From Glutamicibacter soli (GTDB lineage: Bacteria; Actinomycetota; Actinomycetes; Actinomycetales; Micrococcaceae): a stretch of 64,000 nt of DNA. The number at the start of each line of letters is the position of its first letter. Positions within the stretch are counted from its first letter, which is position 1. Location of the stretch: positions 248,001-312,000 of the forward strand of contig NZ_POAF01000003.1 in the NCBI RefSeq assembly GCF_003309065.1, given 5' to 3'. Below, piece after piece: positions 38,166-48,636 of this stretch. Both the position numbers and the translations under genes were made by a program. The notes under the pieces are model-generated. The model made no database searches and was not told where the DNA came from. It saw nothing but the letters and a program-made list of their open reading frames with translations.

Positions 38166-39686
38166 CTAGGAAGTTTCCTGCTTCACGTACCTGGTTTCCG
38201 GACGGGATTCGTAGAACGCCGCACGGCGCTTGCGGGCCCCGATCAGGAACACCGCGCCGAGCACCAGGATTCCCACCCCGACCACGAACACCAGGCCCAT
38301 GCCCGCCACGTGCGTCCCGGAACCGTACTCCGGGTCCAGCGAGTCCACGGTGGTCTGCAGGAACACCGCCACCAGCGCCAGCCCGCCCAGCAGCGGAGCC
38401 AGCCCGCGGATGAGGAAGTTGCGCGCCGAGGCGAGAAGCGTGTGGCGGAAGAACCAGACGCAGGCGAATGCAGTGACCCCGTAGTAGAAGCAGATCATCA
38501 TGCCCAGCGCCAGGATGGTGTCGTTCAAGACGTTGGTGGAGACAAAACGCATCATCGCGTAGAAGCCGGTGGAGACCACCGCCGCCACGATGGTGGAGAA
38601 GGCAGGAGTGCCGAACTTCGGGTGGATCCGGGTGAACGCCTGCGGCAGCGCCCCGTGGTGCCCCATGGCCAGCATCGAGCGGGCCGGGGAAATCATGGTG
38701 GACTGCAGCGAAGCCGCGCAGGACGCCAGGGTCGCCAGCGACAGCAGGATGGCTGCCGGCCCCATGACCGGGCCGGCCAGGGCCGCGAACACGTTGCCGA
38801 TGTTCTCCGGATTCGCCAGGCCCAGACCTGAATCCCCCACCCCGGCGAACACCGTGGCCGCCACGGAGGTCAGCAGGTACACGGCCAGCACGATCACCGC
38901 GGTGAACCCGGCGGCCAGACCGGAGGTGCGCTCGCCGTTCTTGGTTTCCTCGTTCATGGACAGGCAGACGTCCCAGCCCCAGAAGGCGAAAATGGACAGG
39001 CTCAGTCCCACCGCCATGGCGGAGAAGGAATCGATGCCCAGCGGGTTGAACCACTCGGCGGAGAACTGCACCGCCGGGGCCGCCTTGTCCAGGGCCGCGA
39101 TGGTGAACCAAAGCAGCACCACCACCTGGAAGCCGACCAGCAGGTACTGCACCAGCGAGGCGGCGTGCAGCCCGCGCACCGAGATCCAGGTGGCGCCCAG
39201 CATGAACACCAAGCAGGTGGCCACGTTGATCCACGGGTTGGACGCCAGCTCGGCCAGCTGTTCCTGCCCGGTGGCCTGGGCGAGGAAGAGGTAGAAGAAG
39301 TCCACCGCCACCCCGGCCAGGTTGGAGAGCACGATGATGTTCGCCGCGAGCATTCCCCAGCCGCCCATCCACCCGGCACGCGGCCCGAAGGCCTTCCACA
39401 CCCAGGTGAAGGTGGTGCCGTTGTCCGGCATGGCCCGGTTCAGCTCGCGGTAGCCCAGGGCCACCAGGAACATCGGGATGAACCCGACGATGAAGATGGC
39501 CGGCAGGTGCGTGCCCACCGCTTCGGCGGTGGGGCCGAGCGTGCTGGCCACCACGTAGCTGGGCGCAATGGTGGATACGCCGATCACGATGGCCGTGAAC
39601 AGGCCGATCTGGCCTGCAGTCAGGCCCTTGCCTGTTTCGGTGACCGGGCTGGTGCTCAGCCGGCTGGGTTTCGTCTTGTCTTTCAT
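38166..39686 (-). CDS. APC family amino acid/polyamine permease
   Basis: A 506-residue transporter with 12 predicted helices of the amino acid-polyamine-organocation superfamily. The N-terminus reads TGKGLTAGQIGLFTAIVIGVSTIAPSY and the core has RELNRAMPDNGTTFTWVWKAFGP, the usual first-helix and loop pattern. It lies 30 bases after aguA on the same strand, in what appears to be the agmatine operon, so putrescine, agmatine or a related amine is the likely substrate. Confidence 0.87.
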   Translation of the reverse strand: MKDKTKPSRLSTSPVTETGKGLTAGQIGLFTAIVIGVSTIAPSYVVASTLGPTAEAVGTHLPAIFIVGFIPMFLVALGYRELNRAMPDNGTTFTWVWKAFGPRAGWMGGWGMLAANIIVLSNLAGVAVDFFYLFLAQATGQEQLAELASNPWINVATCLVFMLGATWISVRGLHAASLVQYLLVGFQVVVLLWFTIAALDKAAPAVQFSAEWFNPLGIDSFSAMAVGLSLSIFAFWGWDVCLSMNEETKNGERTSGLAAGFTAVIVLAVYLLTSVAATVFAGVGDSGLGLANPENIGNVFAALAGPVMGPAAILLSLATLASCAASLQSTMISPARSMLAMGHHGALPQAFTRIHPKFGTPAFSTIVAAVVSTGFYAMMRFVSTNVLNDTILALGMMICFYYGVTAFACVWFFRHTLLASARNFLIRGLAPLLGGLALVAVFLQTTVDSLDPEYGSGTHVAGMGLVFVVGVGILVLGAVFLIGARKRRAAFYESRPETRYVKQETS

Positions 39687-39716
39687 CGCACTGGATCCTT
39701 TACCGGGCGGGGTGTT

Positions 39717-40739
39717 CTATCGCTTCGGAACCTGCTGGGTGATGCAGTGGATTCCTCCGCCGCGGGCATACAGCTCGGTGGCGTCCACCGCGACGACCTC
39801 GCGGCCCGGGTAGGCCTGGGCGAGGATCCGCGCGGCCTGCGCATCGTTTTCATCGTTGAAGCAGCAGGCGATGACTCCCCCGTTGGTGACCAGGTGGTTG
39901 ATGTAGGAGTAGTCCACCCAGCCTTCCTCGTCCTTCAGCGTCTTGGGCGCCGGGACGGGGACCAGGCGCAGCTTGCGACCCTTGGCGTCGGTGGCCGCCT
40001 CCAGGAGGCTGCGCACCTCGGCGGAAATCGCATGGTCCGGATGGGCCGGGTCTTGCTGGTCGTGGTAGAGCACCACACCGGGTTCTGCGAAGCAGGCGAC
40101 GATGTCCACGTGGCCGCGGGTGCCGAACTCCTCGTTGTCCCGGGTCAGCCCGCGCTCCAGCCAGATGACCTTCTGCGCGCCGAGCTGCTTGGCGAACTCG
40201 GCCTCGATGTCCGCGGCGCTGGCTTCCGGGTTGCGTCCCGGGTCCAGCTGGACGCTGCGGGTGGCGAGCATGGTGCCCTCGCCGTCCACGTGGATTCCGC
40301 CACCCTCGTTGGTGATCGAGGACTGCACCCGGGCAGTCTGCTCCAGCTGCGCGACCTGGGCGGCGATCTTCGAGTCCTTGCCCCAGGAGGCCCAGGACTG
40401 GGCACCCCAGCCGTTGAAGTTCCAGTCGATGGCGGCCAGTTCGCCGGAGGCGTCGCGCACGAAGGTCGGCCCGATGTCCCGCATCCAGGCGTCGTCCAGC
40501 TCGCGCAGCGCGTAGCTGACCTCCTCGCCCAGGTGGCGGCGGGCGTCCGATTCGGCCTGCGGGTCCACGACCATGGTCACCGGGGTGAAGCGGGCGACGG
40601 CCTTGGCCACCGCGGCCCAGGTGCTGCGCGCGGCTTCGGCCTCCTCGGCGGTGTCGCCCAGGGTGTAGCCGCCGGAGGGGAAGGCCATGTAGATGCGTTC
40701 GTGCGGATCGGTTTCCGCGGGCATGAGGAACTCAGACAT
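39717..40739 (-). CDS. aguA: Agmatine deiminase
   Basis: Hydrolyses agmatine to N-carbamoylputrescine and ammonia. The 340-residue protein has the guanidino-modifying fold with MPAETDPHERIYMAFPSG at the start, ELDDAWMRDIGPTFV, GGIHVDGEGTML, TRGHVDIVACF and the catalytic cysteine in RGGGIHCITQQVPKR at the C-terminus. The start at 40739 follows GGGGAG and lies eight bases inside the end of aguB. The two enzymes make a two-step route to putrescine. Confidence 0.93.
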   Translation of the reverse strand: MSEFLMPAETDPHERIYMAFPSGGYTLGDTAEEAEAARSTWAAVAKAVARFTPVTMVVDPQAESDARRHLGEEVSYALRELDDAWMRDIGPTFVRDASGELAAIDWNFNGWGAQSWASWGKDSKIAAQVAQLEQTARVQSSITNEGGGIHVDGEGTMLATRSVQLDPGRNPEASAADIEAEFAKQLGAQKVIWLERGLTRDNEEFGTRGHVDIVACFAEPGVVLYHDQQDPAHPDHAISAEVRSLLEAATDAKGRKLRLVPVPAPKTLKDEEGWVDYSYINHLVTNGGVIACCFNDENDAQAARILAQAYPGREVVAVDATELYARGGGIHCITQQVPKR

Positions 40740-41709
40740 GGGAGCTCCCCATCTCTCCCAGACCGGACTCGGCACGGGCTTCGGTCAGCGCGCCGTAGGT
40801 TTCCGGGCGGCGGGTGCGCAGGAACGGGAAGAGCGTCAGCCAGTCGCGGCGGGCGTCCAAATCCAGGGTTGCCACCAGGACGGCGGATTCGTCGCGCGGA
40901 GCGCGCGCCAGGATGCGGCCATACGGATCCGAGATGAAGGAGGAACCGTAGAAGGTCAGTGCGCCTTCGTCGCCCCAGCGGTTGGGGACCACCATGAACA
41001 GCCCGTTGGCGATGCCGTTGCCGATGATGGTCTGGCGCCACAGCGGTTCGGTGTCGAAGTCCGGGTGGTCCGGTTCGGAGCCGATAGCCGTCGGGTAGGC
41101 CACCAGGTCCGCGCCGGCCAGCGAGTAGATGCGCGGCGGCTCGCTGAACCATTCGTCCCAGCAGGTGGGCAAGCCCATGGCCAGGCCATTCAGCTCCTCG
41201 AGGCGGTGCACCGGGTAGGGATCCTCGCTCGGGCCTTCGCGGAAGTACTTGTCCTCGTAGTATCCGGCGGTGCGCGGAATGTGCAGTTTGTTGGTCAGCG
41301 CGACGATTTCGCCTTGCGGCGACACGACCACGGCGGTGTTCAGTCCCAGGCCGTCCTCGGCCGGGGCCTTGCGGAACAGCGAAATGTGCACATGAATGGA
41401 GTAGCGCGCGGCCATGTCGCGGGCGAAGGCGACGGTCGGCCCGCTCTCCAGGTCCTCGGCGGACTCGTCGGCAGCGTCCGGGTTCGGCACCACGAAGGCC
41501 GGGTACTTGCTCAGCGTCAGCTCCGGCAGGTACACGATCTTGGCCCCTCGGGAGGCCGCGCGGCGGATGCCGTCTTCCAGTTCGTCGCGCAGTGCCTGCG
41601 GGTCTTCGTGCCAGTGGTGCTGGACCAGCGCGACCGTCAGTTCCCCGCGCTCGGCGGCGTCCACGCGGGCCGGAGAGGCCGGCGGGGTGAGAGCGAGTAT
41701 TTCTTTCAT
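40732..41709 (-). CDS. aguB: N-carbamoylputrescine amidase (nitrilase superfamily)
   Basis: Carbon-nitrogen hydrolase of 325 residues with the Glu-Lys-Cys triad visible in VYLPELTLSKYP, LTNKLHIPRTAGYYEDKYF and LPTCWDEWFSEPPR. It is likely to convert N-carbamoylputrescine to putrescine, CO2 and ammonia. The partner aguA overlaps its stop. GGAG lies seven bases before the ATG. It is the first gene of the aguB-aguA-permease operon, and its start region overlaps a TetR-type operator. Confidence 0.9.
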   Translation of the reverse strand: MKEILALTPPASPARVDAAERGELTVALVQHHWHEDPQALRDELEDGIRRAASRGAKIVYLPELTLSKYPAFVVPNPDAADESAEDLESGPTVAFARDMAARYSIHVHISLFRKAPAEDGLGLNTAVVVSPQGEIVALTNKLHIPRTAGYYEDKYFREGPSEDPYPVHRLEELNGLAMGLPTCWDEWFSEPPRIYSLAGADLVAYPTAIGSEPDHPDFDTEPLWRQTIIGNGIANGLFMVVPNRWGDEGALTFYGSSFISDPYGRILARAPRDESAVLVATLDLDARRDWLTLFPFLRTRRPETYGALTEARAESGLGEMGSSHV

Positions 41710-41727
41710 GGCTATGCTCCATCGCTA

Positions 41728-41746
41728 AAACGAATGTGATTCGTTT
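41728..41746. promoter_or_regulatory. Operator 1: AAACGAA-N5-TTCGTTT over the aguB start region
   Basis: Perfect seven-base inverted repeat with spacer TGTGA, 19-37 bases before aguB. On the minus strand a possible -10 (TATCCT, 41754-41749) with an upstream TTGCGT about 18 bases further lies just before it, so the site would cover the transcription start. Confidence 0.75.
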
Positions 41747-41782
41747 ACAGGATAAGCAGTGCCCCGCGTCACACGCAAGAGG

Positions 41783-41803
41783 TAAACGAATGATTTTCGT
41801 TTA
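41783..41803. promoter_or_regulatory. Operator 2: TAAACGAA-N5-TTCGTTTA upstream of the TetR gene
   Basis: Same half-site and spacing as operator 1 with centres 56 bases apart. It lies just before TATGCT (41811-41816), a plausible -10 of the regulator gene on the plus strand. Both genes would be repressed, including the regulator itself. Confidence 0.75.
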
Positions 41804-41852
41804 ATTCGGATATGCTCGGGTGGAAGGCCCCGACAGGAAGGCAGTGGATGCC

Positions 41853-42461
41853 ATGGCACGTCCCTCCAAGCCCAAGCTCAGCCCGGACGCGATTGCCGCC
41901 GCGGCGTTGAAACTGATCGACAAGCACGGCGAGTTCACGCTCCCGCAACTGGCCAAGGCGCTGTCCGTGACGGCATCCTCGCTCTACAACCATGTGGCGG
42001 GCAAGGACGAGATCATCGAGCTGATGCGCGGCCGCGCCATGTCGGCGATCAGCCTGCCGGACGGCGATTCCGGGGACTGGCAGGAAACCGTAAGGCAAAT
42101 CGCCACGTCCTACTGGGAATCGTATTCAAAACACCCGCGGCTGATCCCGTTGCTGACCAGCCATACCGTGCGGGACCGCACCACCTTGCGGGTCTACGAT
42201 GCGTTGGCGCAAACTCTCGCGCAGGCGGGGTTCCCGCCGGCGGACCGATTGCACGCGATCACCATCATCGATTCATTCGTGCTCGGCTCGGCGCTTGATG
42301 CGGCTGCGCCGGAAATTGTCTGGGAAGCTAATGATTCTTCGGGGCATGAATTCAAGGAGGCGCTGGACGCCGGTCTCCAGCTGGAACAGCGAGCGCGACT
42401 GACCTTTCACAAGGGACTTGAGCTGATTCTCCTCGGCTTAGGCAATATTCGTTCCAGTTAG
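41853..42461 (+). CDS. TetR family regulator of the agmatine operon
   Basis: A transcriptional repressor of about 202 residues. The N-terminal TetR HTH reads LSPDAIAAAALKLIDKHGEFT then LPQLAKALSVTASSLYNHVAG, ending KDEIIELMRG. The ligand-binding C-terminal domain is of the TetR_C type, with LHAITIIDSFVLGSALD. ATG 41853 is preceded by AGGAAGG about 11 bases away; GTG starts at 41820 and 41844 are possible. It diverges from aguB, and the gap holds two matching operators; the inducer is probably agmatine or putrescine. Confidence 0.87.
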   Translation: MARPSKPKLSPDAIAAAALKLIDKHGEFTLPQLAKALSVTASSLYNHVAGKDEIIELMRGRAMSAISLPDGDSGDWQETVRQIATSYWESYSKHPRLIPLLTSHTVRDRTTLRVYDALAQTLAQAGFPPADRLHAITIIDSFVLGSALDAAAPEIVWEANDSSGHEFKEALDAGLQLEQRARLTFHKGLELILLGLGNIRSS

Positions 42462-42499
42462 CCTGCCGGCACGGATCGTTGCATCGTGCTCGATAGTAC

Positions 42500-43627
42500 T
42501 CACGAGCAGTGCAGCGATCTGACCACTCCAAGTAATCCGATAGAGCCCTTCGCTTTCGAATGGACGATGGGAGCGGCGGTCCATCCGTTGTCATACATCG
42601 CATACACGCGGAAGTTCACGTCAAATTTCGACCCAAAGAGGTTGCCCAGAAGGTCTATCAGGAGCGACAGCAACCCGCCCGAAGGGGAAATATCGACAGA
42701 GTATGTGGTGGTAGACACAGGCAGGGGGTCGGAGAATTTCTCTTCACTGTCGTTGATTTGGACAGATACCTTGTATCCCGTTAATTTCGAACCCTGGGCT
42801 GCTGGAGCTTGCCATGCGAAGTTGATGACATTGTTACCGGATAGCGAAGATTTATCTTTGCATGAAAGATTCTTGGCCGGTTGCATAACGGCGCCGTGCA
42901 ACGTACCCCCTGCTTTCGCCGTGGAAGTGAAAGCAGCCTGCGTCGATTCGACCGCAGGGCGAAGTTGCAACGAAGCGACCGCCGTCGAAAGAACAAGCAC
43001 CATGCACAAAAGGCGGGATATGCCAGCACGAGGCAAGTCCCCCCGCCCAGGGGATCCTGCACAAGCATCGGCATCAGTCTCCGAATTGCGTTTCTGGGTA
43101 GAACTTCTCGGGACGGATTCACCAACTGCTGGCTGCGGGCTACGCGAGAATGCGAGATAGAGCAGGTAGGCGCACAACAACCCGCCTAGGAAATACGCCC
43201 ATGGCTGGGACAGCCACGTCACCAGGTACCCCAAGCCCGGAAAGCTGACCAGAAGCTTGTCGGCGCTGTCCACCGCATACGGTTGCAGGTCCGCGACGGG
43301 ATTGGCATCCCCCTTGAGGATCAGGCCTGCTTCGGTCTTGTCGGCTACCCGGTGCGTCACCCGAACTTCGTTGCTGGTGACCACCGAAACCACGTCGCCT
43401 ATGGCAACTTCCACAATCGGGGTGGGAACAGCCAGTCCCAACGATCCGGTGGGGATGCCGGGTCCCATCGAGCCACTGGCAAAAACCAGCGGTTTCACCC
43501 CAAACAGCACAGCCGCAAGCGTCATGAGCAGGCACAAGGATCCGAGGATCGCCCCGGCATTCAGCGCAAGGCGCTGGAGCGGGTTGCCGTTGCGTGCATC
43601 GGATTTGATCCGTTCCTGGTTTCCCAC
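42500..43627 (-). CDS. Signal peptidase I (SipW/ER type) fused to an exported Fn3-like domain
   Basis: A 375-residue membrane protein. Residues 1-165 are an ER-type signal peptidase: one helix (GAILGSLCLLMTLAAVLFGV), Ser in FASGSMGPGIPTG, His in RVTHRVADK, Asp in LKGDANPVADLQ, then a second helix. A charged linker (about residues 165-200) leads to a third hydrophobic segment (RLLCMVLVLSTAVASLQL) ending STQAAFTSTAKAGG, which resembles the alternate signal of the SipW substrates. The last 130 residues look like a fibronectin type III domain (NFAWQAPAAQGSKLTGYKV, YSVDISP, FRVYAMYDNGW). Start is GTG, one base after the previous stop. It is probably both protease and substrate. Confidence 0.78.
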   Translation of the reverse strand: MGNQERIKSDARNGNPLQRLALNAGAILGSLCLLMTLAAVLFGVKPLVFASGSMGPGIPTGSLGLAVPTPIVEVAIGDVVSVVTSNEVRVTHRVADKTEAGLILKGDANPVADLQPYAVDSADKLLVSFPGLGYLVTWLSQPWAYFLGGLLCAYLLYLAFSRSPQPAVGESVPRSSTQKRNSETDADACAGSPGRGDLPRAGISRLLCMVLVLSTAVASLQLRPAVESTQAAFTSTAKAGGTLHGAVMQPAKNLSCKDKSSLSGNNVINFAWQAPAAQGSKLTGYKVSVQINDSEEKFSDPLPVSTTTYSVDISPSGGLLSLLIDLLGNLFGSKFDVNFRVYAMYDNGWTAAPIVHSKAKGSIGLLGVVRSLHCS

Positions 43628-43628
43628 C

Positions 43629-44204
43629 TTATGACCCCACCGTTCCGGTGAAGACCAGGTCCAGCTTCGTGGTGGCGCCTTGCAGGTTGTTGGCCGCGGT
43701 CACGGGCAGCGAGTACTGCACGCAGAGTGTTTCCGAAGCGCCTGCGGCCAGTGTCGATACTTCAACTGACCCGCCGAAAGCTGATCCAGCTTTCTTATCT
43801 ACGATGGCCGCTGTGCCGGAACAAGTCGCGCTCGGTGCGGTGCCGCTGACCGTGGAGCCGGTCTTCACCTGTACCTGCATGGCCTTGCCCAATTCGACGC
43901 CGCCGCTGTCGGTGATGCTGCCCCTGATGGAATACGGCAGCTCGACCGTGCTGGTGTTCTTCACGACAACTACCGCTGCGGCGCTGGCTCCCGGGTACCA
44001 GTTCACCGAGGAGACCGGCACGGTGTAGCTTTCGGAGGTCGCGCTGGAGGCCGTTGCTCCGACCCCGAGCGATACCTTTGCGGCGGTGATGCTGGTGGTC
44101 GCCGTGGCGGTTCCGGTCCAGGCCGCCAAGGTGGACACCGAGCCGAGGCCTACCAGGATTCCCACCGACAGGATCGCCTTGACCTGTACCGATCGTCTGC
44201 TCAT
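43629..44204 (-). CDS. SipW-dependent alternate-signal exported protein (A3)
   Basis: A 191-residue exported protein with a short, odd signal peptide (MSRRSVQVKAILSVGILVGLG) ending STLAAWTGTATATTS, the AAW-type cleavage region of SipW substrates. The mature part is Ser/Thr/Val-rich and beta-like, with one cysteine in SATCSGT and one in SETLCVQYSLP. The latter segment is shared with protein A2 (SEALCVRLSLP), so these two are paralogues. A structural fibre or matrix role like TasA is suggested by the family, not shown. Its start overlaps the anchor-protein stop (ATGA). Confidence 0.78.
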   Translation of the reverse strand: MSRRSVQVKAILSVGILVGLGSVSTLAAWTGTATATTSITAAKVSLGVGATASSATSESYTVPVSSVNWYPGASAAAVVVVKNTSTVELPYSIRGSITDSGGVELGKAMQVQVKTGSTVSGTAPSATCSGTAAIVDKKAGSAFGGSVEVSTLAAGASETLCVQYSLPVTAANNLQGATTKLDLVFTGTVGS

Positions 44205-44866
44205 TGAGATGCTCCTTGGGGTGCCTGCGCCTGGGCGCCATGTTGCTTCGAACGTAGATATAGCGTTGCGCCGGCCCCGGCCATGCCTAGCGCCAGCGGG
44301 ATCGCCCAGCCGCTGAAGCCGGTGGATCCCAGCTCGTCCGGCGGACGATCCCCTTCCACGTCAGGAGAATGGGGACTGCCCGGCGGCTGCGGGGCCTCCG
44401 GCGATTCGGGTTCCTGCGGGATCCCGCCGGCGACCTCGATCGCGCTGATGTCCAGGCTCAGCGACCGCTCCCGGTCCTGCGAGGAATTTCCGGCAGAAAC
44501 CGGCAGGCTTGCCTCCAAGGCGAAGTTTGCGCGCTGCTGCGGATCCAGCCGCATCGTGGGGTTTCCCGCCACCGCAAACTTCAGCCCGGCGGCGGGGGCC
44601 GAAACCACTGGTTTTACCGTGACTTCGATGGGATGGGGCCGGTCATTGCGGATGGAGAGCTCTCCGGTCAGCCGGTCTCCGGGAACGAGCCGGATTTCTC
44701 CGCCGAACAGTTCGCCCGGGCTTTCCCGGAATTCGCCGCCGTCCACGCTGTAGCTCAGGCCCCGCGGGTCATCTCCGTCCCCGTGCGCTCCGGGGGTCCC
44801 CGCGCCCAGCAGGCTGCCCGCGAGCACCACTGACAGCATGGCCCTGGTTGGCGCCGCGAACTTCAT
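44201..44866 (-). CDS. Exported surface protein with C-terminal LGSTG-type anchor
   Basis: A 221-residue protein. A signal peptide (MKFAAPTRAMLSVVLAGSLLG) is followed by a beta-rich domain (GELFGGEIRLVPGDRLTGEL, PHPIEVTVKPVVSAP) and a Pro/Glu/Ser stalk (EPESPEAPQPPGSPHSPD). The C-terminus has ELGSTGFSGWAIPLALG, a transmembrane helix and basic RSKQH. LGSTG then helix then positive charges is a sortase-like sorting pattern, though not canonical LPXTG. It may anchor the SipW-dependent fibre proteins to the surface. The ATG at 44866 overlaps the signal peptidase stop (ATGA). Confidence 0.75.
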   Translation of the reverse strand: MKFAAPTRAMLSVVLAGSLLGAGTPGAHGDGDDPRGLSYSVDGGEFRESPGELFGGEIRLVPGDRLTGELSIRNDRPHPIEVTVKPVVSAPAAGLKFAVAGNPTMRLDPQQRANFALEASLPVSAGNSSQDRERSLSLDISAIEVAGGIPQEPESPEAPQPPGSPHSPDVEGDRPPDELGSTGFSGWAIPLALGMAGAGATLYLRSKQHGAQAQAPQGASQ

Positions 44867-45432
44867 GACGCCTTCTTCCCGCGGTGCTCCCGCCATGCCC
44901 CGGTGAACATCACCAGCGAATAGGACAGCAGTCCCCCGATGGCCAGCCAAGTCAGCCAGGTCCGCTGCGAAGCGCTGAGCGCTGAATTCAGGTAGCCGAG
45001 CCATGGCAGCGAATACCAGAGCTTGCCGCGCACCTGTTCCGCGACGATCGGCGCATCGTCGGTGTTGTTGGCGTCCCCGCGCAGCACGAACTGCCGCTCG
45101 CCGGAAAGCGACGAGGCCACCGAGACAACGCGATGGGTCACCACGCCGGGTTCCCCGGATTCAAGCTGGTAGGTGAGCACGTCTCCCACCTCGATGGCTT
45201 CAACCGGAACCGGTTTGACCACGACCAGCCGGCCCGGAGGGAAGTCCGGCCGCATGGATCCGGTCAGCACGGTGTAGGCGGTGGCCCCGCCGAGCCGGGG
45301 AATGACCACCATGACGGCAAGCAGGCAGAGCACGATGAAGAGCGCCAGCCAGGACAAGACCTGGCCGGCCCACCAGAACGGCCCGGTTTTCTGTTCTTCC
45401 CGACGCCGTTGCGCCCGCGTCAGCACCGTCAT
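44863..45432 (-). CDS. sipW: Signal peptidase I, SipW/ER type
   Basis: A 189-residue membrane protease of the archaeal/ER type, with Ser in VLTGSMRPDFPPG, His in VVTHRVVSV and Asp in LRGDANNTDDAPI. Transmembrane helices flank the catalytic domain at both ends (LSWLALFIVLCLLAVMVVI; TWLTWLAIGGLLSYSLVMFTG). The short N-terminus is basic (TRAQRRREEQK). The start at 45432 overlaps the A2 stop as ATGA. Its expected substrates are the AAW-type exported proteins encoded on either side. Confidence 0.85.
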   Translation of the reverse strand: MTVLTRAQRRREEQKTGPFWWAGQVLSWLALFIVLCLLAVMVVIPRLGGATAYTVLTGSMRPDFPPGRLVVVKPVPVEAIEVGDVLTYQLESGEPGVVTHRVVSVASSLSGERQFVLRGDANNTDDAPIVAEQVRGKLWYSLPWLGYLNSALSASQRTWLTWLAIGGLLSYSLVMFTGAWREHRGKKAS

Positions 45433-46019
45433 TTCTGCTGTCCCGTGAAGCTGAGGGTGGGCGCCATCCTGCCTCCGGCCGCGGCCTGCGAGGTGCCGGC
45501 CGGAAGGCTGAGCCTGACGCACAGCGCTTCGGAGGCCGACGGGGTTCCTGCGGCCGAAAGCTCGCGCGGGCTGGCGAAGGCCGCGCTCGCGTTAAGCGGG
45601 CCCGAATAGAGCAGCTGTCCGCTGATCTGCTGCGTTCCCGTGCAGCTTGCAGGCGGCACTGCCGCATAGATGCTGATGGTTCCTGCATCCGCCAGCGCCT
45701 GGTCCTTGGCGCTGCCCGATGCGGTTCCCGTGGTGATTCCCGCCAGCCCGTAAACCAGCGGCGTCGTTCCGGCGTTGGAGATGGTCAACGGAGCCTGCAC
45801 GAATGACCCCGGCAGCAGATTCTGGGAATTAAGCTCGGCGAAGACGTAGTCCTTCGCCGCCGAGCTGCCGTTGCCCGCCAGCAGGCTCAGCGAACCGGTC
45901 CGGACTTGCCCGGCATCGATCTGCCCTTCGGCACGCCAAGCAGCGACCGTGGTCTGGGTGCTGAGTCCCAGCACCAGCACCACGGCCGCCGCCGCTGCGA
46001 ACTTCAGGGATTTCGGCAT
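45429..46019 (-). CDS. SipW-dependent alternate-signal exported protein (A2)
   Basis: About 196 residues with the alternate signal KSLKFAAAAAVVLVLGLS ending TTVAAWRAEGQIDAG. The mature part is Ser/Ala-rich with PASCTGTQQI and SEALCVRLSLP cysteines that match protein A3. ATG 46019 is taken as the start; GTG 46037 and TTG 46040 lie just upstream, near AGAGG, so the N-terminus could be six or seven residues longer. It is followed at once by sipW (ATGA overlap). Confidence 0.75.
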   Translation of the reverse strand: MPKSLKFAAAAAVVLVLGLSTQTTVAAWRAEGQIDAGQVRTGSLSLLAGNGSSAAKDYVFAELNSQNLLPGSFVQAPLTISNAGTTPLVYGLAGITTGTASGSAKDQALADAGTISIYAAVPPASCTGTQQISGQLLYSGPLNASAAFASPRELSAAGTPSASEALCVRLSLPAGTSQAAAGGRMAPTLSFTGQQK

Positions 46020-46043
46020 GCCGGTTCGTGAGTCCACCAACCT

Positions 46044-46595
46044 CTAGCTGCGAACCTGGTCCAGCGTCAGCGTCAGTGCGTCCAGATCGATTGGCTTGTC
46101 CATGGTGTCGGTTGGCGTGGATGCAGCAGTTCCGGCTGGGAAGGTCACGGTGATTTTAACCGGCACCTGGTATACACCCTGCTCCGCAAAGGAAATCACG
46201 TTGCCGGCCTGGGTCAGGCCTTCGGCCGTGGCATCGATTTCAAGGCCGAGATCGATTTCGTCCTGTAGCTCCGGCGGCAGCGCCTGAAGCGTGCCCACCG
46301 ACAGCGCGCCTTCGATGTTCTTGCCCTTAGCGTCAATCCGCACGGTCTGCGTGTAGGCCACTACGTCGCCGGGAACGATTTGCTCGGTGGTCGGATCGAA
46401 CGGCACGCCTGCTCCGCCGTCGCTGATGTCGGTCCAGACGCCGTTGTCGTCCACGGTGAGCGTCAGGTGGCCGGTTTCCACGGTTCCCGCGTCGACGGTT
46501 TCGGTCTGTTGCCACAGCGCGGCGGTTCCCGCTCCGGTCACCAGCAGGACGCCGGCGGCGGCTGCGGCAATGGTCGCCTTGGTTGTCTTCTTCAT
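46044..46595 (-). CDS. SipW-dependent alternate-signal exported protein (A1)
   Basis: A 183-residue exported protein, first of the operon. The alternate signal MKKTTKATIAAAAAGVLLVTG ends TAALWQQTETVDAG, the RER_14450-type alternate-signal family. The mature part is acidic, beta-rich (GDVVAYTQTVRIDAKGKN, VYQVPVKITVTFPAG), and lacks cysteine, unlike A2 and A3. It ends with IDLDALTLTLDQVRS. GAGG eight bases before the ATG is a good ribosome site. It resembles TasA-type fibre subunits, which is inference. Confidence 0.8.
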   Translation of the reverse strand: MKKTTKATIAAAAAGVLLVTGAGTAALWQQTETVDAGTVETGHLTLTVDDNGVWTDISDGGAGVPFDPTTEQIVPGDVVAYTQTVRIDAKGKNIEGALSVGTLQALPPELQDEIDLGLEIDATAEGLTQAGNVISFAEQGVYQVPVKITVTFPAGTAASTPTDTMDKPIDLDALTLTLDQVRS

Positions 46596-46646
46596 GATTC
46601 AAATCCTCAAAATTTCCGAGCGCTCCCCGCGCACTTACTTTCGAGT

Positions 46647-46658
46647 GAATCCGGATTC
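46647..46658. promoter_or_regulatory. Perfect 12-base palindrome in the leader of the SipW operon
   Basis: GAATCCGGATTC lies 52-63 bases before the A1 start codon. The surrounding 326-base gap to glsA holds no supported gene; it contains the terminator at 46862-46885, an AT-rich TTTATATG on the minus strand near 46760 that could be part of a promoter, and this palindrome. Confidence 0.4.
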
Positions 46659-46861
46659 CCACACGGGCACAACATGCACTCGGTCACCACCCAAAGCACC
46701 ATGGCATCGACAGCCCACCCGTTCGCCAACCGGCTATTTCGAGAACTCCCAAACAGGCATATAAAGCCACCTTGACTAGCCCGTATGGGAATGCCGATGG
46801 ATGCCGCAAAAGATTACGCCAGTCGTTTTTCCAGTTGGCCAAGCACGGGCTGCGGGTCGAC

Positions 46862-46885
46862 AAAAAAGACTGGCCGACCGGCCAG
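46862..46885 (-). terminator. Rho-independent terminator of glsA
   Basis: CTGGCC-N4-GGCCAG (46870-46885) is followed on the minus strand by TC and six T residues. It is 37 bases after the glsA stop. A second smaller stem, ATGGC-N6-GCCAT, precedes it. Confidence 0.85.
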
Positions 46886-46921
46886 GGTACATGGCCGATC
46901 AGCCATGCGGAATCGTGGCGG

Positions 46922-47947
46922 CTACCTGGCGGAGTCAGGCGCCGAGGCGAAGAGGTTCAGACCCAGCGCACGGGAAAGGTGGCCGATGGCCAGCTGGCCG
47001 CGGACGGAGTTGCCCGCCATGTCGAGGCGCGGCGAAAACGCGCCGATGGCGCCCTTGCCCGGAGCCACCGCGACAATGCCTCCCGAAACCCCGGACTTGG
47101 CGGGGATACCGATCTCGAACAGCCAGTCCCCGGAACGCTCATACAGCCCGTTGGTGGCGACGGTGGCCAAGGTGTCACGGCAGACATCCGCGCTGACCAC
47201 CTGCTGGCCGGTCACGGGGTTGATGCCGCCGTCGGCCAGGGTCGCACCCATGACCGCCAAATCGTGCGCCGTGACGTTCAGCGAACACTGCTTGGTGTAG
47301 ATGTCCACCGCGTTGTTCGGGTCTCCGTCCAGCTGACCGTAGCTCTTGAGCAGCCGCCCCAGCGCCTTGTTGCGTTCGTTTGCCTCGGATTCGGATTCGT
47401 ACACTTCGTCGTCCAGCGTCAGCGGGCGGCCTGCAAAAGCCGAAAGCCCTTCGCGCACGTTCTCCCATTTCTTGGCGGCGCTCTTGCCTGCGATCATTTC
47501 GGTCGTCGCGATGGCCCCGGCGTTCACCATCGGATTCATCGGGTGCCCGTTGTTCAGCTCGACCGCCATCACCGAATTGAATGGCATGCCGGTATTGTTG
47601 ACGCCGATCTTCTCATGGACAACTTCGTGCCCGTGCTCTTGCAGCACCAGGGCGTAAACGAACATCTTGGAGATGGACTGGATGGAGAATTGGTGGTGGC
47701 AATCGCCCACCCCGTGCACGGTGCCGCCGACGTGCGACATGGAAATGGCGAAGGTTTCCGGCTCGACCTGCCCCAGGACTGGTATGTAGTGGGCGAGCAG
47801 GCCCTCGTCAACGTCCGAATAACGTTCATGTGCTTCGAGCAGCAGCTCGTCGATGCGTTGATGGGCGAGAGTACCGGTGGATACCTGCTGGACAACGTCA
47901 TCAAAATCGGTAGGAATGCTCTCATTCCCGTCCGAGGTATAGGTCAT
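46922..47947 (-). CDS. glsA: Glutaminase
   Basis: Hydrolyses glutamine to glutamate and ammonia, serine-type glutaminase with a beta-lactamase-like fold. The 341-residue protein shows FSIQSISKMFVYALVL with the nucleophile Ser-x-x-Lys, NNTGMPFNSVMAVELN, NPMVNAGAIATTEM and SGVSGGIVAVAPGKGAIGAFSP. The start at 47947 (MTYTSDGNES) follows AAGGTGATC; an upstream in-frame region to 48172 is not conserved. No obvious operon partner. Confidence 0.93.
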   Translation of the reverse strand: MTYTSDGNESIPTDFDDVVQQVSTGTLAHQRIDELLLEAHERYSDVDEGLLAHYIPVLGQVEPETFAISMSHVGGTVHGVGDCHHQFSIQSISKMFVYALVLQEHGHEVVHEKIGVNNTGMPFNSVMAVELNNGHPMNPMVNAGAIATTEMIAGKSAAKKWENVREGLSAFAGRPLTLDDEVYESESEANERNKALGRLLKSYGQLDGDPNNAVDIYTKQCSLNVTAHDLAVMGATLADGGINPVTGQQVVSADVCRDTLATVATNGLYERSGDWLFEIGIPAKSGVSGGIVAVAPGKGAIGAFSPRLDMAGNSVRGQLAIGHLSRALGLNLFASAPDSAR

Positions 47948-48213
47948 GATCACCTTGCTCTTCGTCGAAGAAATCGAATTCTGGCTTCGTTCAGAGACTA
48001 TCAACAGCTCAGGTTGTTGGCACGCGGCACCCTGAAGACCTCCAGCCGGCGCGTTCGACGTACTTTGGCATTCCCGGCATGACGCCCGCGGCGTTTCCCC
48101 CAGGTGGTCCGCGTCTCCATCGTCTTGCCGCACGCCGCAAATGCGTGTGTTTTCACCTACATTGTGCAGCAACTTACAGCGAACAGCCCCCGACCTGACC
48201 TAGCATTTTGAGT

Positions 48214-48636
48214 ATGGCTAAGGGTATTACTTTTCATACGCGCAAGTGGGTTCGCCCAGAAGACTTGAACGCAAACGGCACGCTCTTCGGCGGCAGCCTG
48301 CTGCGCTGGATCGACGAGGAAGCGGCGATCTACTCGATCATCCAGCTCGGCAACAAGCACGTGGTCACCAAGTTCATGTCTGAAATCAACTTCATCGCTT
48401 CCGCCAAGGAAGGCGACCTGATCGAGATGGGCCTGACCGCCATCGATTTCGGACGCACCTCGATCACCCTGCGTGCAGAGGTCCGCAACATCTTCACCCA
48501 GGAATCGATCCTGACCATCGAAAAGCTGGTGTTCGTGAACATGGGCTCGGACGGCAAGCCCGAACCCCACGGCTACGACCAGATCACCTACACCCGCGAT
48601 CGTATCCCGCTGGAAATCACCAAGGCTCTCATCTAG
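48214..48636 (+). CDS. Acyl-CoA thioesterase, hot-dog fold (YciA-like)
   Basis: A 140-residue hot-dog thioesterase that cleaves acyl-CoA. The conserved start WVRPEDLNANGTLFGGSLLRWIDE has the usual Asn-Gly and Asp-Glu pair, then SEINFIASAKEGDLIEMGL. The family signature continues with IDFGRTSITLRAEV. The start is ATG 48214 (TTG 48208 is possible). No ribosome site is seen; TAGCAT ends seven bases before the ATG, which may mean a leaderless message. Confidence 0.86.
   Translation: MAKGITFHTRKWVRPEDLNANGTLFGGSLLRWIDEEAAIYSIIQLGNKHVVTKFMSEINFIASAKEGDLIEMGLTAIDFGRTSITLRAEVRNIFTQESILTIEKLVFVNMGSDGKPEPHGYDQITYTRDRIPLEITKALI

Follow-up and report, generated by a model that had tools for sequence, protein, structure and literature searches.

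Work on fibres of the TasA type has dealt with Bacillus, where they belong to the biofilm, and with related fibres of archaea. Does a soil actinobacterium build them too? The question is raised by six coupled minus-strand genes of Glutamicibacter soli, found by inspection of open reading frames (ORFs) at 46595-42500 of a 64,000-nucleotide stretch of contig NZ_POAF01000003.1 (positions 248,001 to 312,000; this whole stretch is called the window, and its own numbering is used throughout). In order, they are A1, A2, S1, ANC, A3 and S2, and would encode three exported proteins with SipW-type signals (A1, A2, A3), two endoplasmic reticulum-type (ER-type) signal peptidases (S1, S2) and a surface-held protein (ANC). 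An original prediction, made from the letters of the DNA, had placed the same six ORFs here and in this order. We consider it probable that the operon makes a TasA-like fibre by donor-strand exchange, with the help of an assembly protein held at the surface. The sequence basis of this reading is gene order, protein families, Ser/His boxes, cleavage signatures, the pattern of fused and split genes, and co-occurrence; to this are added a predicted TasA-like fold of A3 and a predicted PapD-like fold of ANC.

The six genes are kept together in the genus

The original prediction had proposed conserved synteny as one way to check the operon. The genus was sampled with 18 Glutamicibacter genomes including the source genome (3.84 Mb), some of the strains being filed as Arthrobacter sp. 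In 13 of the 18, the window's own among them, all six genes are present with their order unchanged. Because 12 of the 17 other genomes hold all six in order, the grouping exceeds chance.

The tight coupling that had been predicted is also present. In the window, A2/S1, S1/ANC and ANC/A3 each overlap by 4 bases, A3 and S2 are separated by 1 base, and A1 and A2 by 24 bases (3 if A2 begins at its upstream TTG). With start codons picked by script, the other genus genomes keep the 4-base overlap at A2/S1 (12 of 12), S1/ANC (10 of 12) and ANC/A3 (8 of 12), and the 1-base gap at A3/S2 (11 of 12). The gene glsA adjoins the operon in all 12 other genomes with the full set, and a TetR gene does so in 10, which are all the genomes where TetR was found within the stretch fetched. 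Diverged versions of the operon occur in genomes G001 and G005.

An ER-type peptidase over cut-off was found in 15 of the 18 genomes, and the identical 15 hold A2/A3-type substrates. At the thresholds used, G003, G013 and G014 yielded neither an ER-type peptidase over cut-off nor an A2/A3-type substrate, A1 or ANC. Peptidase and substrate presence thus match across the 18 genomes, and therefore the two come and go together. In genome G002 (locus L042:6256-7449, the same record as L057, titled Glutamicibacter ardleyensis), S2 carries an in-frame stop and the other five genes are open; with its reading frame interrupted, L042 was omitted from the S2 alignment.

Two Ser/His signal peptidases

S1 (44863..45432, minus strand, as are all operon features below; 189 residues) scores 84.7 bits against TIGR02228 (cut-off 51.85 bits) and S2 (42500..43627, 375 residues) 52.8 bits, barely over. 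Both hold a Ser/His pair, not Ser/Lys: Ser59 (45256-45258) and His100 (45133-45135) in S1, Ser53 (43469-43471) and His92 (43352-43354) in S2. The Ser, His and GDAN boxes of S1 are invariant in 13 orthologues, and the Ser, His and Asp boxes of S2 in 12. In the larger collections the Ser box is kept in 57 of 62 S1-type and 73 of 74 S2-type sequences, and the His box in 60 of 62 and 73 of 74, respectively. The S1 profile also matches SEC11A/SEC11C. The two ER-type enzymes of the original prediction are thus borne out, as SipW-like proteins that do not reach the SipW equivalog NF046067 (70.7 bits for S1 and 31.6 for S2, against 190).

Genome-wide, TIGR02228 matches three places, namely S1, S2 and a sub-threshold site of 21.8 bits on another contig; S1 and S2 are the only ER-type peptidases over cut-off in the genome. 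The 21.8-bit match lies beside an apparent ribosomal protein gene and is read as the housekeeping Ser/Lys enzyme. In a FastTree phylogeny of 174 peptidase domains (62 S1-type, 74 S2-type and 38 other, with L062 and L141, from one record, both included), 72 of the 74 S2 sequences form an exclusive group (support 0.935) and 54 of the 62 S1 sequences another (0.783). By these sequences S1 and S2 look like old paralogues rather than a recent doublet.

Exported proteins and their signals

A1 (46044..46595, 183 residues, kept in the genus) is over the cut-offs of TIGR04089 (E 2.8e-37) and of TIGR04088, which describes the SipW-type signal. A3 (43629..44204, 191 residues) passes TIGR04088 with 20.9 bits against a cut-off of 19. 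A2 (45429..46019, 196 residues counted from its ATG, with 46040 as a possible TTG start) is under both, with 28.2 against 60 bits for TIGR04089 and 15.3 against 19 for TIGR04088. The A2 and A3 profiles match one another's proteins, and the A1 profile aligns to the A2/A3 profile with a probability of 94%.

The three proteins and S2 share a putative cleavage signature with threonine at P3, alanine at P1 and an aromatic residue at P2'. It reads T-A-A-L-W in A1 (46512..46526), T-V-A-A-W in A2 (45936..45950) and T-L-A-A-W in A3 (44118..44132), the last two found in both sequence and alignment, and T-Q-A-A-F within S2 (42929..42943). According to the available text of PMC10269814, TasA is cleaved at GGGTWA↓AF, with phenylalanine at P2', and aromatic residues at P2' hinder the Ser/Lys signal peptidase LepB. 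Judged from sequence, the window proteins would be cleaved at their T-x-A-x-[W/F] sites. After removal of near-identical rows, [TS]xAx[WF] was found near the hydrophobic span in 38 of 38 A1-type and 82 of 87 A2/A3-type proteins.

S2 as a probable peptidase-substrate fusion

The original prediction described S2 as a SipW enzyme with an Fn3 domain. An Fn3-like part is there; it is not a plain extra domain, since it sits behind what appears to be a SipW-type signal of its own. What had been overlooked is an apparent natural peptidase-substrate fusion. S2 runs from the catalytic part through a second span and a linker to a third hydrophobic span (residues 206-222, 42962..43012, placed by hydropathy of the near-identical L038 orthologue), then TQAAF (residues 229-233) and a Cys-bracketed Fn3-like domain with a conserved Cys pair, here called ECT (42500..42931). 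We read the third span as the h-region of an internal signal. T229, A231, A232 and F233 are invariant in 12 S2 orthologues, and the linker before them is mostly unconserved. Elsewhere in actinomycetes, ECT is a gene of its own that follows S2 (in some loci an S2 whose tail is ANC-like) and has such a signal of its own. S2 therefore looks like a signal peptidase joined in one chain to a SipW-type export substrate.

In an alignment of 14 fused and 8 separate ECT sequences, one Cys is invariant, and two Trp and another Cys are nearly invariant. ECT matches fn3 at E 0.001, below the gathering cut-off. Since its profile matches many immunoglobulin (Ig) light chains and Fn3 domains in the PDB (E 1e-5 to 1e-2), we read ECT only as an Ig/Fn3-type sandwich and nothing narrower.

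In non-redundant sets the signature was present at 28 of 34 fused S2-ECT junctions and in 19 of 26 separate ECT proteins, with a shuffled expectation of 0.065 per S2-ECT sequence. At control sites it was found in 0 of 42 ANC-type proteins, 0 of 37 first and 0 of 50 second membrane spans of S1, and 1 of 60 first spans of S2. Since fused tails were used to train the ECT profile, the fused ECT counts are partly circular; repeated without that profile, on long, non-redundant S2 tails that are not ANC-like, the count was 33 of 40, with 0.13 per sequence expected from shuffling. Among the separate ECT proteins, L042, counted within the 19, belongs to the interrupted fusion as its tail and is not a true separate gene, L145 and L179 were scored at a later span although TEAFW and TEAAW are present, L104 was scored inside the domain, and L142, an ORF in an overlapping frame, is of doubtful meaning. 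Near forms of the signature occur in L071 and L072 (both AEAAW) and in L085 (ASAAW). The regular expression also picks up TWAFW in ANC-type fusions, close to their second span; these matches were not counted as signals.

Across 71 loci, fetched mainly for their S2 match, 73 S2 genes were compared; L062 was left out because it repeats the record of L141. Of the 73, 70 have an A2/A3-type gene immediately upstream, and 43 have S1 within 4 kb upstream. Where S1 is present, ECT is fused in 35 cases, separate in 2 and not seen in 6; the 30 S2 genes with no S1 there show a separate ECT in 20 cases, a fused one in 3, and none was seen in 7. This suggests two modules by gene content, A1-(A2)-S1-(ANC) and A3-S2-ECT. 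Ten non-redundant S2 genes (the second S2 of L145 and those of L163, L164, L165, L166, L168, L169, L170, L176 and L179) have a tail that is ANC-like or has an LPXTG-like end, only 4 S2 genes passing the ANC profile itself by the rule applied to the 73. An ordinary-looking A-x-A signal precedes this tail in those read, and a separate ECT gene follows in 9 of the 10, all except L170.

Several findings pull the other way. Taken alone, the TQAAF of the window does not reach significance: with a position matrix its shuffle p is 0.18, and some 16% of 886 control ORFs have scores as high. A profile of the A1-A3 signals has its best match on the site in just 11 of 22 S2 proteins, with weak scores. The position matrix gives p <= 0.05 in 11 of 22, and its top window lies off the TxAxF site in L044 (one of those 11) and in L039. 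Such single-sequence statistics were set aside as proof of the internal signal, and because they are weak the case for fusion rests on conservation, controls and split homologues. In addition, 13 of the 73 S2 genes have no fused or nearby ECT by the rule used (which missed an overlapping ECT ORF in L176, scored as not seen), and in L085, L090 and L104, where S1 occurs with A3-like and ECT-like genes, no S2 was seen in the stretch examined; the pairing of S2 with ECT is not strict. Finally, P2' is mostly F in the fused copies (28 F, 5 W) and mostly W in the separate ones (16 of 19), and TQAAF lies several residues past the span. With F at P2' and the site so placed, cleavage in the fused S2 may be slow or absent.

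The last two points, the F preference and the distance of the site, also favour an S2 that stays uncut at TQAAF, its third span remaining as an anchor and the Fn3-like domain serving as a tethered platform that holds A3 near the active site. Since S2 in other loci has, in place of ECT, a fused ANC-like tail that ends in an LPXTG-like motif, it is able to carry a tethered partner. On the other side, the P3/P1/P2' signature is kept in 28 of 34 fusions behind a mostly unconserved linker, and the separate ECT proteins, which should be exported independently, share the signature and often a similar preceding stretch. We regard the uncut form as possible, if improbable. For S2 as a self-processing polyprotein that frees a fibre cap or adhesin, with the peptidase having captured one or other downstream partner (ECT or an anchor-like protein) by fusion across actinomycetes, we put the chances as even; one ECT subunit would then be made per peptidase.

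Matches to the S2 profile at E <= 1e-8 were found in 68 of 149 sampled genomes of the family and 41 of 246 of the class, counts that include matches really to S1 or other ER-type peptidases. A plasmid-borne origin was rejected: only 4 of 72,556 plasmid records match S2, none across >80% of its length. Among the loci collected, the Rhodococcus loci L064 (9575-10174) and L068 (9572-10168) carry an additional A1-type gene immediately behind the fused S2. L063, in a record titled Sporosarcina beigongshangi (Bacillota), holds a whole actinobacterial-type operon much like L142 of the window's family, for which a mislabelled or mixed assembly seems likelier than transfer. Four ER-type signal peptidase-like ORFs lie in a row in a Chloroflexi metagenome bin (L077:5649-9220), and ORFs of ~1,030 residues in clostridial metagenome bins (L103:3493-6582, L108:5538-8618) have an ER-type peptidase-like domain near the C-terminus.

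Predicted fold of the subunits

A1 scores 12.5 bits against 450 for the TasA equivalog NF046066, which matches 2 of 36 aligned A2/A3-type proteins. Camelysin (PF12389) gives 14.5 bits for the window A1 (cut-off 22.5) and no match for the window A2 or A3; 8 of the 36 proteins do match it with E <= 0.01, the best at 1.9e-8. The BsaA family (TIGR04090, a SipW-dependent biofilm matrix protein) is alike in that it matches 3 of 36 A2/A3-type relatives at E <= 0.01, the window A3 not among them; to our knowledge it has no second peptidase or fusion. Against PDB sequences A1 gave chance-level matches only, and the sole matches of the A3 profile were to AbpX at E about 0.5, which is not significant.

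A model of A3 was built from 36 sequences (27 A3-type, 9 A2-type). The A3-type rows L047, L051, L067, L072, L073 and L075 were left out (L068-like repeats excepted), and L054-L061 were dropped as repeats of the L038-L049 loci when alignments were extended. Foldseek against the PDB ranked the TasA fibre 8aur first (E 2.4e-4) and the archaeal bundling pilus 7ueg second (E 5.8e-4). In the VIA comparison TasA again ranked first (Z 9.0, 2.8 Å over 129 residues), with the bundling pilus at Z 7.7, a Sulfolobus filament at 7.4 and FimG at 7.4; an archaeal thread was also among the best structural neighbours. The predicted A3 fold thus resembles TasA, the weight lying on the several kinds of fibre subunit that recur in the top rows. 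Together with the A1 and A3 families and the T-x-A-x-W signals, this match to TasA and donor-strand pilins agrees with the SipW-type export of TasA-like subunits that had been predicted. In the available text of PMC9674648, the N-terminal strand of TasA is the donor strand. The first 39 residues of A3, comprising the signal and mature N-terminus, are without confident structure, and this low confidence is no evidence for a donor strand.

These results have to be set against others. The A3 model is only moderate, with a predicted local distance difference test score (pLDDT) of 75.5, a predicted template modelling score (pTM) of 0.67, and residues 1-39 under 50. The TasA margin in VIA is small because two chains of plant hexosaminidase, which is unrelated, reach Z 8.1, within 1 of TasA. 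Among the open-licence literature matches listed there is no fibre in the genus, and the system is known here from genes and models. A1-A3 might instead be secreted single proteins (adhesins, enzymes or wall proteins) with SipW-type signals and no fibre, a reading favoured by the common occurrence of beta-sandwich folds, by the inferred status of the polymer, and by the Pfam label of the camelysin family as a metallo-endopeptidase. We think this unlikely, given that the best structural neighbours of A3 include TasA, the archaeal bundling pilus, the archaeal thread and FimG, all fibre subunits, and that an operon with three to four subunit-like genes and a held protein of PapD-like fold suits assembly.

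ANC and the sortase question

ANC (44201..44866) has an ordinary-looking signal peptide, a predicted beta-sandwich domain, a proline-rich linker, LGSTG (44318..44332), a membrane span and a short tail. Profile-library scans assigned it to no family, and its profile gave chance-level matches only, with no relative, among PDB sequences. The ANC model (pLDDT 76.7, pTM 0.53; rows L047, L065, L104 and L112 left out of the alignment) resembles MSP/PapD-like domains, namely VAP-A MSP (Z 8.8), WxLIP 9i1y (8.2) and the YadV chaperone (8.0), a fold that is widespread. Because the ANC profile aligns to the A2/A3 family with a probability of 86%, ANC may be related to the TasA family but have taken on a different role.

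The original prediction called ANC a sortase-like anchor, for which the evidence is mixed. Of 7 relatives that were aligned from other genera, 5 have LPXTG as the motif (L067, L070, L079, L090 and L107) and the remaining two LGETG and LSLTG; LANTG, LADTG and LxDTG also occur among relatives. The motif drifts within the window's genus (LGSTG, LGDTG, LANTG, LADTG, LPETG and others, with LPETG in L045 and L050), and the window itself has LGSTG. The single sortase match of the genome, which we take to be a class E housekeeping sortase, is on another contig, outside the operon, next to a sequence that by eye looks PASTA-like and to a gene resembling glutamine amidotransferase. The anchor label is therefore weak. 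That ANC is a covalent wall anchor and the system a sortase-built pilus instead of a TasA-like fibre is very improbable: the LPXTG ends of its relatives and the presence of one sortase match speak for it, and against it stand the absence of a sortase gene from the operon, the location of the only match on another contig, and A1-A3 alignments in which no C-terminal sorting signal was seen, the marks of a sortase-assembled pilus thus being missing.

Proposed mechanism

Under the TasA-like reading, the operon would make and export an extracellular fibre of the TasA/camelysin type, with cleavage, pairing of enzymes and substrates, polymerisation and fibre function all inferred. The signals of A1, A2, A3 and ECT, ending in T-x-A-x-[W/F], would be poor substrates for the housekeeping Ser/Lys enzyme on account of their aromatic P2' residue, and the operon would therefore bring its own Ser/His peptidases. 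Most likely S1 would serve A1 and A2, and S2 would serve A3 and ECT. Cleavage would liberate the N-terminal strand, and A1-A3 would polymerise via donor-strand exchange. ANC, exported in the ordinary way and held in the membrane or wall, would take the subunits as chaperone, base or nucleator, a role likened to that of TapA or CapP in Bacillus. The third span of S2 would be the signal peptide of ECT, and S2 would cut itself or a neighbour at TQA↓AF, releasing ECT, possibly as a tip or cap.

Neighbouring genes

The operon is flanked by glsA (46922 and upward) and by a converging TetR gene (41820-42461). Since a terminator-like stem (46905-46871) separates glsA from A1, A1-S2 is probably a transcription unit of its own. 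No sigma-70-like promoter was found in 42300-47000, the glsA-A1 interval included, and Rfam at its gathering threshold gave zero RNA elements in 41000-48500. The TetR gene was considered as the operon's regulator and dropped: it converges on S2 and is back to back with amidase-like and deiminase-like genes. Within 38166-42461, the TetR gene (named by profile) stands back to back with genes that are presumably agmatine deiminase-like, carbon-nitrogen hydrolase-like and amino acid permease-like. These look like a polyamine unit apart from the operon.

Discussion

In the available text of the papers on Bacillus subtilis tapA-sipW-tasA, the operon likewise combines a dedicated Ser/His peptidase with TasA-fold subunits, a T-x-A↓x-[F/W] signature and an accessory protein for which a role as anchor or chaperone has been proposed (PMC9674648, PMC10151520, PMC10269814). 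In contrast, the Glutamicibacter operon has two peptidases, three subunit genes and, it appears, a fourth substrate joined to one of the peptidases. The score of A1 falls far short of the TasA equivalog cut-off, and those of S1 and S2 far short of the SipW one. ANC differs from TapA in having an LPXTG-like end and no SipW-type signal, the signature being found in 0 of 42 ANC-type proteins, so that the SipW-processed signal of TapA is missing. TapA also has an Ig-like domain that donates a strand; for ANC, the model gives a PapD/MSP-like domain. Bacillus cereus sipW-tasA/calY/capP is alike in its two co-assembling TasA-type subunits and wall-located chaperone-like protein; however, the available text names one peptidase, and CapP is itself SipW-processed in the model given there, unlike ANC-type proteins (PMC13082335). 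The archaeal AbpA/AbpX bundling pili share TasA-related pilins and the second Foldseek rank for the A3 model, but they are archaeal and their sequence similarity to A3 is not significant. WxLIP/PapD-like and MSP-like domains match the ANC model only at the level of fold.

Already known by name are A1 and the signal type, both in NCBIfam. What is new relative to SipW/TasA systems is the presence of two peptidases and a probable peptidase-substrate fusion, and among the open-licence literature matches listed no publication describes an actinobacterial operon of this kind or such a fusion. S2 offers a testable case of a peptidase cleaving its own chain. A signal peptidase fused to its own substrate, if true, would be an unusual coupling of export with assembly, and the operon would extend TasA-type fibres to Actinomycetota as a multi-subunit system.

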